Assembly (NCBI GenBank): GCA_016284265.1
Contig: JAEEOM010000039.1
Location: forward strand, 1 to 61,560
Reading direction: 5' to 3'
Length of the DNA: 61,560 nucleotides
Source of the DNA: Bacteroidales bacterium
Lineage (GTDB): Bacteria > Bacteroidota > Bacteroidia > Bacteroidales > UBA932
The position numbers were made by a program, and so were the translations under genes. Numbering within the stretch: position 1 is the first letter of the stretch; each line of letters starts with the position of its first letter. A model generated the notes under the pieces. That model had not been told where the DNA came from. It saw only the letters and a list, made by a program, of their open reading frames with translations, and did not search any database. Below, piece by piece: positions 42,796 through 48,474 of the stretch.

Positions 42796-44316
42796 TTAGG
42801 TTTCGGAAGGGTGGTTCAGTTGGAGGAGCGGGTCGATGTGTTCGCGGCTGTTGCTCAGACGCGGCACCTTGTGCTGGCCGCCCAGTTTGCCGCGCTGCTT
42901 CAACCAGGCGCTGAAGAGTCCCGGACGGGCAACCACAACTTCGAGCGGCTGGAGTGTGATGTCCTTGAAACGCTTGGCTTCGTAATCGCTGTTGATTTCC
43001 TGGAGGTGCCGGTCAAGCGTGGCGGCGAACTGCGCCAGGTCGGCGGGTGGCCGTGCGAATTCGATGAGCCACTGGTGGCGGCAGTGACCCTTGTCGTCCA
43101 TGAAGACGGGAGCCGCGGTGTATTCCAGCACTTCGGCGCCGGTCTCCCGACAGGTGCGCGCAAGGCCCTGCTCAGCATTATCGACGATCAACTCCTCGCC
43201 GAAGGCGTTGATGAAATGCTTCGTCCGGCCCGTGATGACGAACTTATAGGGATTCTTCGAAGTGAAGCGCACTGTGTCGCCGAGGATGTAGCGCCACAGG
43301 CCGCAGCAGGTAGAGATGACCATGGCATAGTTGCGGCCGGTCTCCACGCCCCAGACGGGAATGATTGTCGGATTCCGCCGGCCGAACTCCTCCATGGGAA
43401 TGAATTCGTAGAAGATATCGTAATCGAGCATCAGGCGCATTGCCGGATCGGCCGGGTCGTCCTGAATGCCGAAGAAGCCTTCGCTGGCGTTGTAGGTCTC
43501 CATATAGTGCATCTTGGGCGATGCAATCAGCCGTTCGTACTGTTTGCGGTAGGGCGTGAAGGCTACACCGCCGTGGAAGAAGACCTCCAACTCGGGCCAG
43601 ACTTCGTCAATCCGGCTCTTCCCGGAAATCTCCAGTACCCGGTCGAGCACCGAGAGCATCCAGGAAGGAACGCCGCTGATGTTGGTCACGTTCTCCTGGA
43701 ACGTTTCCCGGGCGATCCGGTCGCGCTTTTCCTCGAAATCAGAGAGCAGTGCCGTTTCTTTCTTCGGCACGCGGACCAGATTGGCCAGCGGATTGATGTT
43801 CTCGATAAGGATGGCGCTCAGGTCGCCGACCAGCGAATCTTTCAGATTATAGTTCGGAGCGTGGCTGCCGCCCAGGATCAGGGCCTTGCCGTCGAAAAGC
43901 CGGCTCTCCGGATGGTTGGCCAGATAGAAGGCTACGGAATCGTAACCACCCTGGAAATGAGCTTTCTGCAGTCCGTCCGGACTGACGGGGATGAATTTGG
44001 ATTTGTCGTTGGTCGTCCCCGAGGACTTGGCGTACCACTTGACTTTGCCGGGCCAGAGAACATCGCTCTCTCCGTGGCGCATCCGGTCGATGGACTCCTT
44101 CAGTTCTTCGTAGGTATTGACAGGCACAGAGTCGGCGAAATCTTCATAGCTGCGGACGGCCGCGAAGGCATGGGTGCGGCCGTACTCGGTATCTTTGGCT
44201 TTATGGGTCAGCCAGCGGATGACCTCCCGCTGGGCGGCATCGCCGTTGTGCGCCTGCCGGGCCAGCTCCCGCTGGCGGGGTTCGAAAGTCAGTCGGGCAA
44301 GGGTAGTCAGACTCAT
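42796..44316 (-). CDS. GH3-family acyl-adenylating protein
   Basis: The 506-residue protein matches the GH3 auxin-responsive family, members of the firefly-luciferase superfamily that adenylate acyl acids and often join them to amino acids. Visible features are the P-loop-like YAKSSGTTNDKSKFIPVS, the GGVAFTPYRKQYE stretch, YNASEGFFGIQ and KHFINAFGEELIVDNAEQGL. The length is near the family norm (about 500-550). It lies between a DUF3108 protein and GlsA/GlsB in one tight operon. Plant GH3 enzymes make amide conjugates; the bacterial substrate is not known. Confidence 0.85.
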   Translation of the reverse strand: MSLTTLARLTFEPRQRELARQAHNGDAAQREVIRWLTHKAKDTEYGRTHAFAAVRSYEDFADSVPVNTYEELKESIDRMRHGESDVLWPGKVKWYAKSSGTTNDKSKFIPVSPDGLQKAHFQGGYDSVAFYLANHPESRLFDGKALILGGSHAPNYNLKDSLVGDLSAILIENINPLANLVRVPKKETALLSDFEEKRDRIARETFQENVTNISGVPSWMLSVLDRVLEISGKSRIDEVWPELEVFFHGGVAFTPYRKQYERLIASPKMHYMETYNASEGFFGIQDDPADPAMRLMLDYDIFYEFIPMEEFGRRNPTIIPVWGVETGRNYAMVISTCCGLWRYILGDTVRFTSKNPYKFVITGRTKHFINAFGEELIVDNAEQGLARTCRETGAEVLEYTAAPVFMDDKGHCRHQWLIEFARPPADLAQFAATLDRHLQEINSDYEAKRFKDITLQPLEVVVARPGLFSAWLKQRGKLGGQHKVPRLSNSREHIDPLLQLNHPSET

Positions 44317-45053: not shown

Positions 45054-45470
45054 CTATTTCTGGAAGAAATAAAACCAGGCCACCCACGCTTGCTTGAGGC
45101 CGGAATCGGCATGGCCGATGGTGCGGTAGGAGTCGTCCTGGACGGTGCCGTCACTCTTGATGTGTCCGATGGTACGGTAGGAACCGTCCTGAACGGTGCC
45201 GTCGCTTTTGATGTGTCCGATGGTGCGGTAGGAACCGTCCTGGACGGTACCGTCGCTCTTGATGTATCCGACGGTGCGGTAGGAGCCGTCCTGGACGGTG
45301 CCGTCGCTTTTGATATGGCCGATGGTACGGTAGGAGCCGTCCTGAATGGTACCGTCACTCTTGAGATAGCCGACGGTACTGTAATTGCCGTTCTGGAGCC
45401 GCTGGGCACAGGCTTCGCCGCCCGTCAGCAGGGCGGCCAGGGCCAGCAGGAGAAAGAAGAAACGTTTCAT
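45054..45470 (-). CDS. Secreted 17-residue tandem-repeat protein
   Basis: The 138-residue protein has a signal peptide (about 22 residues, ending EACAQ), then five 17-residue repeats (residues 28-112) of consensus GSYRTIGHIKSDGTVQD and a partial sixth copy. It ends in an aromatic tail (AWVAWFYFFQK). The repeat looks like a β-hairpin or solenoid unit. I know of no function. It is the first gene of the operon that continues into DUF3108, GH3, GlsA and GlsB. Confidence 0.75.
   Translation of the reverse strand: MKRFFFLLLALAALLTGGEACAQRLQNGNYSTVGYLKSDGTIQDGSYRTIGHIKSDGTVQDGSYRTVGYIKSDGTVQDGSYRTIGHIKSDGTVQDGSYRTIGHIKSDGTVQDDSYRTIGHADSGLKQAWVAWFYFFQK
45135..45389 (-). repeat. 51-bp coding tandem repeat, five units
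   Basis: Five units of 51 bp encode residues 28-112 of the repeat protein. They are highly similar at the DNA level, implying recent expansion or slippage. The period equals that of the non-coding repeat at 192-377, but the sequences are unrelated. Confidence 0.9.
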
Positions 45471-45548: not shown

Positions 45549-45974
45549 ATGATTCTTTCTGCATCCTACGATGAAATCGCCCGGCTGGTCCGCGAAAAAA
45601 GCGGGCAGAATATCTGCCTCCAGTACAAAAGTGCCGATACGCTGACCGTCTCGTATGAAGCCTCGATCCCCATCCCGGTCCTCAATCGTCCGCTTACCCA
45701 TACGGTATCGGCTGACGTGCAGTTGGTGGGCCTCAATCTTCCCCATGTCGTATTGCTGTTCGACGCCGGAAGGGCTGGAAACATGGCGATGGACCTGGCT
45801 TACCGGACGTTGCTCGGAAAGATGCCTCCCGGGCTGGTCGAACAGTTCTCGGACGGCCGTGCCGAGCTCAACCTGGCCGCGGTCCCGAAGCTCAAGGCGG
45901 TCTTCGAGCGCCTGAAGGTCAACAGTCTGTCGTTTTACAGCAAGTCGATCAGCCTCGACGCCGAATTCAAATGA
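45549..45974 (+). CDS. Uncharacterised 141-residue protein
   Basis: I do not recognise this family. The protein has no signal peptide or hydrophobic helix and alternates short strands and helices (MILSASYDEIARLVREKSGQ at the start, a β-rich middle, and AVPKLKAVFERLKV near the end). Its stop overlaps the start of the kinase-AAA+ gene (ATGA), which suggests translational coupling. It is therefore a candidate partner or substrate of that protein. Confidence 0.75.
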   Translation: MILSASYDEIARLVREKSGQNICLQYKSADTLTVSYEASIPIPVLNRPLTHTVSADVQLVGLNLPHVVLLFDAGRAGNMAMDLAYRTLLGKMPPGLVEQFSDGRAELNLAAVPKLKAVFERLKVNSLSFYSKSISLDAEFK

Positions 45975-47725
45975 CCATGATCCGCCTGTCCCCAGATTAC
46001 CCGATCGGACCCTACCGCGTCGAACGGTTCATCAAGGATGGCCTGTTCAACAGCAACTATGTGGTGAAAGATCCGGGCGGACGCCGCTGCTTCCTGAAAC
46101 TCTTCGATCCAACCGCTGTTCCGTCGTCCTGGCTGGTGCACGGAGAAGTGGAGGAAATCGTGAACAGCCGCAATCTCTCCCATGAACATGTGGTATCATA
46201 TGTAGCGGACGGACGGGTTTCCCTGGAAGACCAGGTGTGTCCTTATCTGGTGATGCAGTTCTTCAAGGGGGCACTCCTTTCGGAGTATCTGCAGGAAGGC
46301 CGTAAGTTTACTGAGCGGGAAGTCCGGGCGATCGCCGGGGCCGTGCTCCGGGGCCTGGTCTATCTCCGCCAGGAGGCCGGGTTGAACCATAACGACATCA
46401 CGCCCCGCAATATCCTGCTCGAGGAGACGCCGGACGGGCTCGTTCCCAAACTCATTGACCTGGGCCATGCCCATGGCGACGTGTTGCAGGGAGATCCGCC
46501 TTTCCCGATGGAAGACCTGAATCTCCTCTATACGGCACCTGAGGCGCTGGACGGTGTTTTCACAGCGGAGAGCGACGCCTTTTCTGTAGCGGCACTGCTC
46601 TTTACCCTGATCTGCGGCCAGGCTCCCTGGTACCGGATGCTCGAAGGCATGGAATCCTTTGCGGAACGGAAAGCCGAAATGCAGGCTGCCCGTCGGCGCG
46701 ATCCGGTATGGCCGGCTGCGCTCCATGCCAGCGAACGGGGGTTGCAGAATCTGGTGCTGACCGGTCTTCAGCTGGATCCAGCGCGGCGCCCCTTGCCTGA
46801 GCGGATGCTGGATCTGCTCTACGGGGTTCCGACGGACGAGCGGCATAAGACAGCGGACAAACAGCCGCCCAAGAAGGCAGAGCCGACAAGCGGTCTGAAA
46901 GCCACGACCGACAGTACGGAACTGAAAAAGACCATGCAGCGGGGTGCTCGTAGCGGCGGCTTTGCCGATGTGGCCGGCATGGAAGACCTCAAGAAGATGT
47001 TGACCGAGCGGGTGATCTGGGTGCTCCGCGACCGGGAGAAGGCACAGAAATACAAGCTCCTGCCGCCCAACGGCATGTTGCTTTATGGCCCGCCGGGCTG
47101 CGGCAAGACCTATTTTGCCGAGAAATTCGCCGAGGAATCACATTTCAACTACATGGTGGTCAACGGATCGGATTTGGGAAGCACCTATATTCATGGTACT
47201 CAGGGAAAAATCGCCGCACTCTTCCAGGAAGCGGCGGCCAAGGCGCCTACCGTACTCTGTTTCGACGAGTTCGACTCGTTTGTGCCGGCCCGCGGAAGCG
47301 AGGCGGCCCGCCATCGTCCCGAAGAGGTCAATGAATTCCTCTCCCAGTTGAACAACTGTGCCAAGCGCGGCATCTTCGTCATCGGCACCACCAACCGGAT
47401 GGATATGATCGATCCGGCCATCTTGCGCAAGGGCCGCCTCGACCTGCTGGTCGAAGTGCCGGCGCCCGAACTGGAGACCCGCCGCCAGATGTTCCTGCAT
47501 CACCTCAAAGGACGGCCCATCGCCGACGACGTCGATGCCACCCGATTGGCGGAACTGACCGACGGATACGCCTCCTCCGACATCGCATTCATCGTAAACG
47601 ATGCCTCGCTGGTCGCCGCCCTCGCCGACGAGCCGGTCTCCCAGCATCATCTCGAAGACTCCATCCGCTGCAATCCTTCTTCGCTCGGGAAGAAAGCGGC
47701 GCGAACCCCCATAGGATACCGATAG
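45971..47725 (+). CDS. Protein kinase-AAA+ ATPase fusion
   Basis: The 584-residue protein joins an N-terminal eukaryotic-type kinase domain (about 10-285) to a C-terminal AAA+ module (about 325-580). Kinase landmarks are Lys43 in FLKLF, HND at 140-142 with Asn147, DLG at 163-165 and an APE motif in TAPEA; the glycine-rich loop is degenerate (IKDGLFNSNY). The AAA+ module is of the FtsH/Cdc48 type: Walker A GPPGCGKT at 373-380, Walker B FDEFDS near 431, GTTNR sensor and RKGRLDLLVEVP. A Lys/Pro-rich linker joins them. No protease, FHA or transmembrane segment is present. The thioesterase gene follows 2 bp on. Confidence 0.88.
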   Translation: MTMIRLSPDYPIGPYRVERFIKDGLFNSNYVVKDPGGRRCFLKLFDPTAVPSSWLVHGEVEEIVNSRNLSHEHVVSYVADGRVSLEDQVCPYLVMQFFKGALLSEYLQEGRKFTEREVRAIAGAVLRGLVYLRQEAGLNHNDITPRNILLEETPDGLVPKLIDLGHAHGDVLQGDPPFPMEDLNLLYTAPEALDGVFTAESDAFSVAALLFTLICGQAPWYRMLEGMESFAERKAEMQAARRRDPVWPAALHASERGLQNLVLTGLQLDPARRPLPERMLDLLYGVPTDERHKTADKQPPKKAEPTSGLKATTDSTELKKTMQRGARSGGFADVAGMEDLKKMLTERVIWVLRDREKAQKYKLLPPNGMLLYGPPGCGKTYFAEKFAEESHFNYMVVNGSDLGSTYIHGTQGKIAALFQEAAAKAPTVLCFDEFDSFVPARGSEAARHRPEEVNEFLSQLNNCAKRGIFVIGTTNRMDMIDPAILRKGRLDLLVEVPAPELETRRQMFLHHLKGRPIADDVDATRLAELTDGYASSDIAFIVNDASLVAALADEPVSQHHLEDSIRCNPSSLGKKAARTPIGYR

Positions 47726-47727
47726 CC

Positions 47728-48474
47728 ATGGAAAACAACGACAAGAAAACCATCCGCCGCTTTGCAGTGACCAGCTACGACGCCGACGTGTCGCATTTCC
47801 TGAAGCCGGGCGCCTTCATGGACCTGGCGCAGGAAATCGCCTACGTTTCAGCCACGTCGCTCGGGTTCGGCTACGAAGACCTTCAGCGTTATGGGACGGC
47901 CTGGGTCCTGTCGCGCATGCATATCGAGTTCCCTGCTCCGCCGAAATGGCGGGACGAAGTCGAACTGCAGACTTGGCACAAGGGGTTTGAAGGTCCGTTT
48001 TACGTGCGGGATTTCCGGATGCTCGGGCCGGACGGCCAACCGGCGGTGCTGGCCACCTCCTCCTGGCTGATTATCGACGTGGCTTCCCGGCGCCTGCTCC
48101 GGCGGGAGCATCTTGCCGATCAGTTGCCGCTCGATACACAATGCTCCGACAGTGCCATTGAAGAGCCTTGCGGCAAAGTCCAGATGCCGTGTGAGGGGAT
48201 GGAGGAGATTGCCGAGCACGTGGTGGCTTATTCCGACGTCGATTTCATCGGTCATGCCAACAATGCGAAATATGTGGTGTGGGCGATGGATTGCCTGGAT
48301 TTTGAGACAGTCCGTACGCGCCGGGTCCGTTCCGTACGCATTAATTTCAACAAGGAACTCCTCCCTGGTGAGACTGTGGAACTCTTCCGGGCGCCGGTCG
48401 AAGGGGGCTGGGTAGTGGAAGGCCGGGTGGGAGACCGCTCTTCCTTCTGCGTGGAGATTCTTTTTGAGGCTTGA
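47728..48474 (+). CDS. Acyl-ACP thioesterase
   Basis: The 248-residue protein is a double-hotdog acyl-ACP thioesterase (FatA/FatB-like). It has MDLAQEIAYVSATSLGFGYEDL, the AWVLSRMHIEF stretch, and the second-domain catalytic pattern DVDFIGHANNAKYVVWAMD (Asp, Asn, His type). It would hydrolyse acyl-ACP to free fatty acid, ending chain elongation. It directly follows the kinase-AAA+ gene and converges on the AraC regulator with 11 bp between. Confidence 0.9.
   Translation: MENNDKKTIRRFAVTSYDADVSHFLKPGAFMDLAQEIAYVSATSLGFGYEDLQRYGTAWVLSRMHIEFPAPPKWRDEVELQTWHKGFEGPFYVRDFRMLGPDGQPAVLATSSWLIIDVASRRLLRREHLADQLPLDTQCSDSAIEEPCGKVQMPCEGMEEIAEHVVAYSDVDFIGHANNAKYVVWAMDCLDFETVRTRRVRSVRINFNKELLPGETVELFRAPVEGGWVVEGRVGDRSSFCVEILFEA

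Follow-up and report, generated by a model that had tools for sequence, protein, structure and literature searches.

A kinase-fold/AAA+ fusion family of Bacteroidota with an I-G-[FY] tail as a candidate unfoldase partner of ClpP

We describe a gene in a 61,560-nucleotide stretch of DNA from a Bacteroidales bacterium (assembly GCA_016284265.1, contig JAEEOM010000039.1), here called the window. It encodes a 584-residue protein that joins a protein kinase fold to an AAA+ motor and carries the tripeptide I-G-Y in a short C-terminal tail. We propose that this fusion is probably a ClpP-docking unfoldase of the classic AAA+ clade, supplying the unfolding subunit of an ATP-dependent protease built on ClpP. 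Four observations carry the proposal: the domain anatomy, the conservation of the motifs, the linkage of fusion and ClpP genes in relatives, and two genomes in which ClpX was not found. The initial annotation of this DNA, made from the letters alone, did not pick up the IGY at the C-terminus, the neighbouring ClpP genes or the partners described below, which are YbjN-like proteins and Hsp70. Coordinates are collected in Table 1.

The kinase/AAA+ fusion in a single intact open reading frame (ORF) is real. It had been read as one polypeptide combining a kinase with a Cdc48/FtsH-like AAA+ remodeller, and this holds. The 584-aa ORF is intact, Pfam recognizes both halves (Pkinase PF00069, 87.8 bits, cut-off 31.7; AAA PF00004, 115.3 bits, cut-off 21.2), and many genomes carry the gene. 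Nor is the fusion unique to this genome. Full-length homologues occur at 70–84% identity in 11 further genomes of the same genus and at 33–56% identity elsewhere. In the genus clade, the ratio of nonsynonymous to synonymous differences per site (pN/pS) averages 0.39 in the kinase half and 0.10 in the AAA half over 55 pairs, taken from 11 of the 12 copies (L035 was omitted as a near copy of L034). Because of these homologues and ratios, the fusion cannot be put down to chance. The linker region, residues 286–329, evolves fastest of the four parts compared (pN/pS 0.55). A second Met at 45977 is the alignment start for most genus-clade homologues. An AlphaFold2 (AF2) model built on 48 homologues has a mean predicted local distance difference test score (pLDDT) of 86.4.

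The AAA+ half carries Walker A YGPPGCGKT, Walker B FDE, a GTTNR sensor and the arginines of LRKGR. Further positions are the pore loop Y406-I407, the sensor N475 and R486/R489. The motif positions are retained in 50–52 of the 52 full-length members. The best NCBIfam profiles are CDC48 (177.7 bits, cut-off 802.65) and FtsH_fam (159.7 bits, cut-off 600). Structural neighbours found by Foldseek are FtsH, p97 and a PAN chimera, and Cdc48/p97 is closest in a PDB profile search.

The tail is the second conserved element. Of 58 family members, 52 have [IV]G[FY] among their final 20 residues; the background, counted as [IVL]G[FY], is 15 of the 676 remaining ORFs in these loci (Fisher p 6e-59, kinship uncorrected). 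For this count 5 of 63 clustered rows were dropped: two duplicates (L091, L114), a remnant in genome G004 and, from L026 and L081, one unrelated AAA ORF each. L092 has an over-long ORF start, and its row was trimmed to the last 600 residues. Six relatives consist of the AAA half only, and the tail motif is present, as IGF, in four of them (L081–L083, with two YbjN-like genes each, and L026, with one); L084 and L085 are without it. From about residue 571 the AF2 model has low pLDDT and the tail is flexible. The spacing between a conserved VNE and the tail motif varies from 127 to 155 residues (46 rows), which fits a tethered docking motif of a few residues. ClpX is described as docking onto ClpP through an Ile-Gly-Phe loop (PMC7112951), and a related LGF loop, present or absent, is reported to distinguish ClpC from ClpB (PMC10149685). 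In the window's own genome the ClpX loop is I-G-Y, identical to the tripeptide of the fusion tail. Across the eight genomes examined, this ClpX loop follows the pattern [VIM]G[YF].

The third line of evidence is gene linkage. A ClpP gene lies immediately 3' of the fusion gene in six relatives (L092, L093, L106, L107, L108 and L110), and in a seventh, L038, it lies downstream with three ORFs intervening. All seven linked ClpPs exceed the PF00574 cut-off. In the family tree, L038, L093 and the group L106/L107/L108/L110 form three separate branches. This tree was built by a quick method with Shimodaira–Hasegawa-like approximate likelihood-ratio (SH-aLRT) support only, and without L079, L080, L082–L085 and L092. 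In the six genomes with ClpP directly downstream no further ClpP was found; weaker PF00574 matches in three of them are frames of about 600 aa. The linked ClpPs of L038, L092 and L093 share 74–84% identity with one another and 62–68% with clpX-adjacent ClpPs (L171, L180–L182). The family points to a protease partner in trans. Within the polypeptide no peptidase family appears among the 25 Pfam matches listed of 27, so the earlier claim that the protein has no protease stands for the chain itself and gives way, in relatives, to a likely ClpP partner. The claim that it has no membrane segment probably holds as well. The hydropathy maximum over 19 residues is 1.57, at residues 196–214, and the usual threshold for a membrane segment is 1.6. 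Since this peak falls within a predicted helix of the kinase half, a membrane segment is unlikely.

A protein search of 10 genomes found no ClpX in two of them, G821 and G822, and found it at 64–100% identity in the other eight. G821 and G822 have one PF10431 match each. The order tig-clpP-clpX is present in the window genome and in G020. In G821 the trigger factor gene (tig) is followed by an unrelated 516-aa ORF and neither clpP nor clpX. Its ClpP is therefore outside the usual operon, beside the fusion.

From these data we infer ring assembly, docking, degradation, phosphorylation and a role for the kinase domain as follows. Six copies would assemble into a ring through the FtsH/Cdc48-like AAA+ module. 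The pore loop Y406-I407 would pull substrate through this ring. On its lower face, the flexible I-G-Y tails would enter hydrophobic pockets of ClpP in the way known for the IGF loops of ClpX. At the entry side, the usual position of recognition domains in other unfoldases, would sit the kinase-fold domain on its flexible linker. There it would bind substrates or adaptors, the latter being YbjN-like TY-chaperone proteins or, in the window clade, a 141-aa protein, and together with this partner it would gate or mark what is to be unfolded. In the window's lineage, where the catalytic residues are intact, the kinase may phosphorylate substrates, adaptors or the ring. A bolder version is possible but, in our judgement, doubtful. 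It holds that one polypeptide both marks and destroys, the kinase phosphorylating bound substrates or the ring and the ClpP-docked motor unfolding the substrates into ClpP; that ClpX has been displaced in some lineages; and that elsewhere a dead kinase serves as a recognition domain with a dedicated Hsp70.

Several observations weigh against docking onto ClpP. The window gene has no ClpP nearby, and the clpP of its genome sits in tig-clpP-clpX. Across the family, the sequence read around the gene contains no ClpP for 45 of the 52 full-length members. G821 and G822 are metagenome-assembled genomes (MAGs) of untested completeness, so the missing ClpX could be a gap; the contig of G822 ends right after tig. 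The genomes of L106, L107, L108 and L110 keep ClpX. Their fusions lack IG[FY], ending instead in RR.[VI]V[QE]GL ([QE]GL or QGLS), and have L instead of Y in the pore loop. The third residue, F or Y, does not strictly agree between the two proteins of one genome: in Bacteroides acidifaciens the ClpX loop has VGY and the fusion tail IGF. The IG[FY] tail could also bind another partner, for example HslV. The ClpP linked to the L106 group is itself divergent, with 40–49% identity to other ClpPs and SGGG in place of SPGG in three of the four. Changed tail, changed pore loop and divergent ClpP possibly reflect co-evolution of motor and peptidase.

The kinase half is less uniform than the motor. In the window protein it holds K43, E62, H140-N141-D142, N147, D163-L164-G165 and A189-P190-E191. 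The residues named in the initial annotation (Lys43, HND, Asn147, DLG and APE, together with the Walker motifs and GTTNR) are all present. Its glycine-rich loop, IKDGLFNSNY, is degenerate, as had been noticed, with K22 at the expected first Gly (alignment by eye). The full GxGxxG loop occurs in none of the aligned family rows examined. The Hanks-type set (catalytic Lys, alpha-C Glu, HxD, Asn, DxG) is found in the window protein and in 12/12 genus-clade copies. Elsewhere the complete set K43/E62/D142/N147/D163 is found in 16 of 22 members linked to YbjN-like genes, in 2 of 4 others and in none of 14 linked to Hsp70, 8 of which have Glu at position 142. A paralogue in the window genome (G000:C50, 55% identity) reads HNN and GLG instead of HND and DLG. 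Full-length members all have the kinase fold, which is truncated in L111 and L113. The active kinase of the initial annotation fits the window clade, as far as residues go, and fails as a description of the family. Judged from the alignments, the AAA+ motor is the constant part, and kinase catalytic residues are kept in some branches only. The kinase half of the window's lineage may be active, and that of the Hsp70 lineage is probably a binding domain.

This pattern bears on an alternative, the reading of the initial annotation minus its lipid link, in which the fusion works as a Cdc48-like remodelling or disaggregating AAA+ machine, free of any protease and regulated by an active N-terminal kinase. 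The complete kinase residues in 12/12 genus-clade copies, purifying selection on the kinase half and the absence of an adjoining ClpP from the window gene all favour it, and the Hsp70 gene in the locus of 14 members is compatible with disaggregation. Such a machine would nevertheless leave the conserved IG[FY] tail, the repeated ClpP linkage and the unfound ClpX of G821 and G822 unexplained, and the Hsp70 class retains its AAA+ motifs with a complete kinase set in 0/14. We regard it as unlikely.

A role in anti-phage defence, akin to IetA, MADS Mad6 or PD-T4-6, appears improbable. PADLOC matches cover both halves (mad6 100 bits, IetA 96 bits, PD-T4-6 78.6 bits), and LmuB is matched at 22.2 bits by a coiled-coil protein of 315 aa encoded in the Hsp70 operon. 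Sporadic spread (full-length members in at least 15 of 393 genomes of the order), the internally deleted remnant in G004 and the position of L094 near ORFs that by eye resemble type III CRISPR genes point the same way. The matches, however, reflect shared kinase and AAA domains only, and the NCBIfam models score far under their cut-offs (IteA 90.8 vs 510, MAD6 68.1 vs 460). PADLOC gave no match for the 141-aa partner, nor for the YbjN-like, TerB-like, Hsp70 or linked ClpP proteins (one of each tested), so that no tested partner matches a partner of the IetAS, MADS or PD-T4-6 systems. By eye, the genes around the window gene and around those of L092 and L093 resemble ordinary metabolic genes. 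That the tail docks another self-compartmentalized peptidase, either HslV or a ring of the proteasome type, as the C-terminal motifs of HslU or PAN do, the ClpP linkage being incidental, is very improbable: the PAN/HbYX arrangement does combine a classic AAA ring with docking through the C-terminus, and the C-terminal Tyr/Phe of HslU is reported to control HslV (PMC4106860), yet ClpP is the peptidase recognized in seven linked loci (whose neighbours were partly annotated, HslV and proteasome genes not being searched for) and the tripeptide matches the ClpX loops of Bacteroidales genomes.

A ClpP-docking fusion would share with ClpX, ClpA and ClpC an AAA+ ring (predicted here), the I-G-[FY] tripeptide and, in some relatives, a gene adjacent to clpP; in two genomes it apparently takes the place of ClpX. 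It differs in having a classic FtsH/Cdc48-type module rather than a Clp-type one, in carrying the tripeptide in a C-terminal tail rather than in a loop inside the AAA module, and in having a kinase fold as N-domain where Clp unfoldases have a zinc or Clp-N domain. Neither PF10431 (Clp D2-small) nor a ClpX model is among the 25 of 27 Pfam and 25 of 38 NCBIfam matches listed for the fusion. PAN and Mpa resemble it in their classic AAA ring and short docking motif at the extreme C-terminus. The fusion's motif is I-G-[FY] and not HbYX, the chain ending in PIGYR with Tyr penultimate but preceded by Gly; the linked peptidase in relatives is ClpP, and PAN models score under their cut-offs. The N-domain of PAN and Mpa is a coiled coil with an OB fold, instead of the kinase fold. 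FtsH is, with Cdc48, closest by AAA profile and fold; no M41 protease domain was found in the fusion, and a membrane segment is unlikely. Cdc48/p97 has two AAA domains and an N domain, and the fusion has one PF00004 stretch. We place the fusion outside Clp, FtsH, Cdc48 and PAN because one defining feature of each was looked for and not found. With PknB-type Hanks kinases the family shares the kinase fold and K/E/HND/N/DLG/APE; it departs from them in its degenerate glycine loop, its fused AAA+ motor and the loss or replacement of the catalytic Asp in a large part of the family.

Among the literature matches listed (open-licence sources, titles and opening abstracts), no description of the fusion family was found. 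The MoxR/vWA and GTPase/Hsp70 systems treated in PMC7159879 are distinct from it. Cpa is reported to bind the proteasome, its last five residues being dispensable (PMC6017811). The ClpP unfoldases named in the literature searched (ClpX, ClpA, ClpC and ClpI) are Clp-type AAA+ proteins. ATP-dependent ClpP proteases are thus already known; what would be new is a classic-clade AAA+ protein that bears a kinase fold, ends in an I-G-[FY] tail and is the proposed ClpP partner. If the proposal is right, the ClpP interface is reached by two kinds of motor, with HbYX tails at the proteasome as a parallel, and ClpX can be replaced. Phosphorylation and proteolysis in bacteria would then be joined within a single chain by the kinase fold at the entry gate, and the branches with intact and with dead kinases would form a natural experiment. 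ClpP is a drug target, and therefore an unlisted partner in gut Bacteroidota would matter for activators such as acyldepsipeptides.

The family is sporadic in Bacteroidota and extends beyond one genome. Of 40 genomes of the genus, 14 contain a full-length member; 12 of these members match the window type, whereas those of G019 and G020 belong to another branch. The count given above for the order is a lower bound, because at most three candidates were scored per genome. In the phylum sample, 6 of 394 other genomes gave matches, five full-length and one to the AAA half only. Further members come from Prevotella, Muribaculaceae, Paludibacteraceae, Alistipes and Bacteroides acidifaciens DSM 15896, and the relative L091 is a Bacteroidales MAG from water-buffalo omasum. 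In the cultured B. acidifaciens strain (L113, 4553–9624) the locus is of the Hsp70 type, and the kinase part of the fusion (495 aa) is truncated and degenerate. The G004 remnant (G004:C7, L025:7122–7421) is an in-frame 99-aa product of about residues 2–45 and 550–584, a natural internal deletion; as only this remnant is present, the fusion gene is dispensable there. One scan of viral contigs with the fusion protein gave four pattern matches and no relative, and viral spread is unsupported. A wider contig scan kept the best 80 of at least 419 relatives. L115–L170, mostly archaeal and other AAA proteins with 32–51% identity over 87 aa, stand outside the analysis.

Table 1. Features of the fusion gene and its neighbours in the window.
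Feature	Position	Strand	Basis
Upstream partner, 141 aa	45549..45974	+	4-base overlap (ATGA) with fusion gene
Kinase-fold/AAA+ fusion protein, 584 aa, one ORF	45971..47725	+	no internal stop
Kinase-fold half, residues 10–285	45998..46825	+	PF00069, 87.8 bits; AF2 pLDDT mostly 84–98
Flexible linker, residues 287–317	46829..46921	+	AF2 pLDDT <50
Classic-clade AAA+ module, residues 330–567	46958..47671	+	PF00004; CDC48/FtsH profiles; Foldseek
C-terminal R-T-P-I-G-Y-R, residues 578–584, proposed ClpP-docking motif	47702..47722	+	family conservation
Acyl-ACP thioesterase, local neighbour	47728..48474	+	PF01643, 71.9 bits

Neighbourhoods were compared by calling and clustering ORFs in 61 stretches, two of them duplicates. 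The calls were mechanical, and the counts therefore cover conserved families only. By locus, the 52 full-length members divide into 22 that adjoin a YbjN-like gene, 14 with an Hsp70-like gene, the 12 of the genus clade and 4 others. In the tree the window clade is nested inside the YbjN class. Against the YbjN profile (cut-off 22) the partner in L112 passes at 38.7 bits, those in L024 (20.0) and L094 (21.4) fall just under, and that in L095 gives no match. YbjN and type III secretion system (T3SS) chaperone-like proteins have been proposed as peptide-binding chaperones (PMC9503650). Downstream of the fusion–YbjN pair in L094 (12434–18261) lie ORFs that by eye resemble a type III CRISPR (Csm) operon.

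The Hsp70-like neighbour (one tested) matches PF00012 at 8e-67, and 10 of the 14 Hsp70-linked loci also carry a TerB-like gene. The TerB reading of this protein of about 160 aa is tentative, since its scores of 19.7 and 22.6 bits lie under the Pfam cut-off of 24.4. Two further identities in the Hsp70 operon, suggested by eye, found no support. A GrpE-like reading of the 315-aa protein has an hhalign probability of 2.8 against the window genome's GrpE, and a J-domain reading of a 486-aa neighbour one of 2.7 against its DnaJ; Pfam is silent on both. In L038 (2216–13800), from the same genus, Hsp70, fusion, TerB-like gene and a second ClpP follow in close succession on the same strand. Its host, G020, also has tig-clpP-clpX.

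The initial annotation had suggested that the fusion, with an upstream partner and a downstream thioesterase, may form a system tied to lipid metabolism. A conserved three-gene system of this kind is not supported, though the upstream gene recurs. The 141-aa gene is found in 7 of the 12 genus-clade loci, immediately upstream of the fusion in 5; in the other 5 loci it was not found within the stretch read. Distant relatives occur in two YbjN-class loci: one close to the fusion in L104 (28%, E 3e-9) and, reached by way of that protein, a second in L076. The protein has no Pfam, NCBIfam, PHROG or PADLOC match. Its predicted fold (AF2 pLDDT 83) has no PDB match at E<=0.001, the best being 0.19. 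Kinship with YbjN is unsupported (hhalign probability 0.4). The thioesterase lies immediately 3' of the fusion in only 6/12 genus-clade loci, and the sole further match in the remaining loci read, in L099, has 23% identity and lies 6 kb off. It stands outside the conserved system, and the proposed tie to lipid metabolism falls with it.

Two genes on the minus strand lie upstream in the window. One (45054–45470), divergent from the fusion operon, encodes a 138-aa protein of about six near-identical repeats of about 17 aa, matched by the Pfam 5-fold beta-flower family (PF21785, 119 bits). The other (42796–44316) encodes a 506-aa protein that by eye resembles acyl-adenylating enzymes of the GH3 family.

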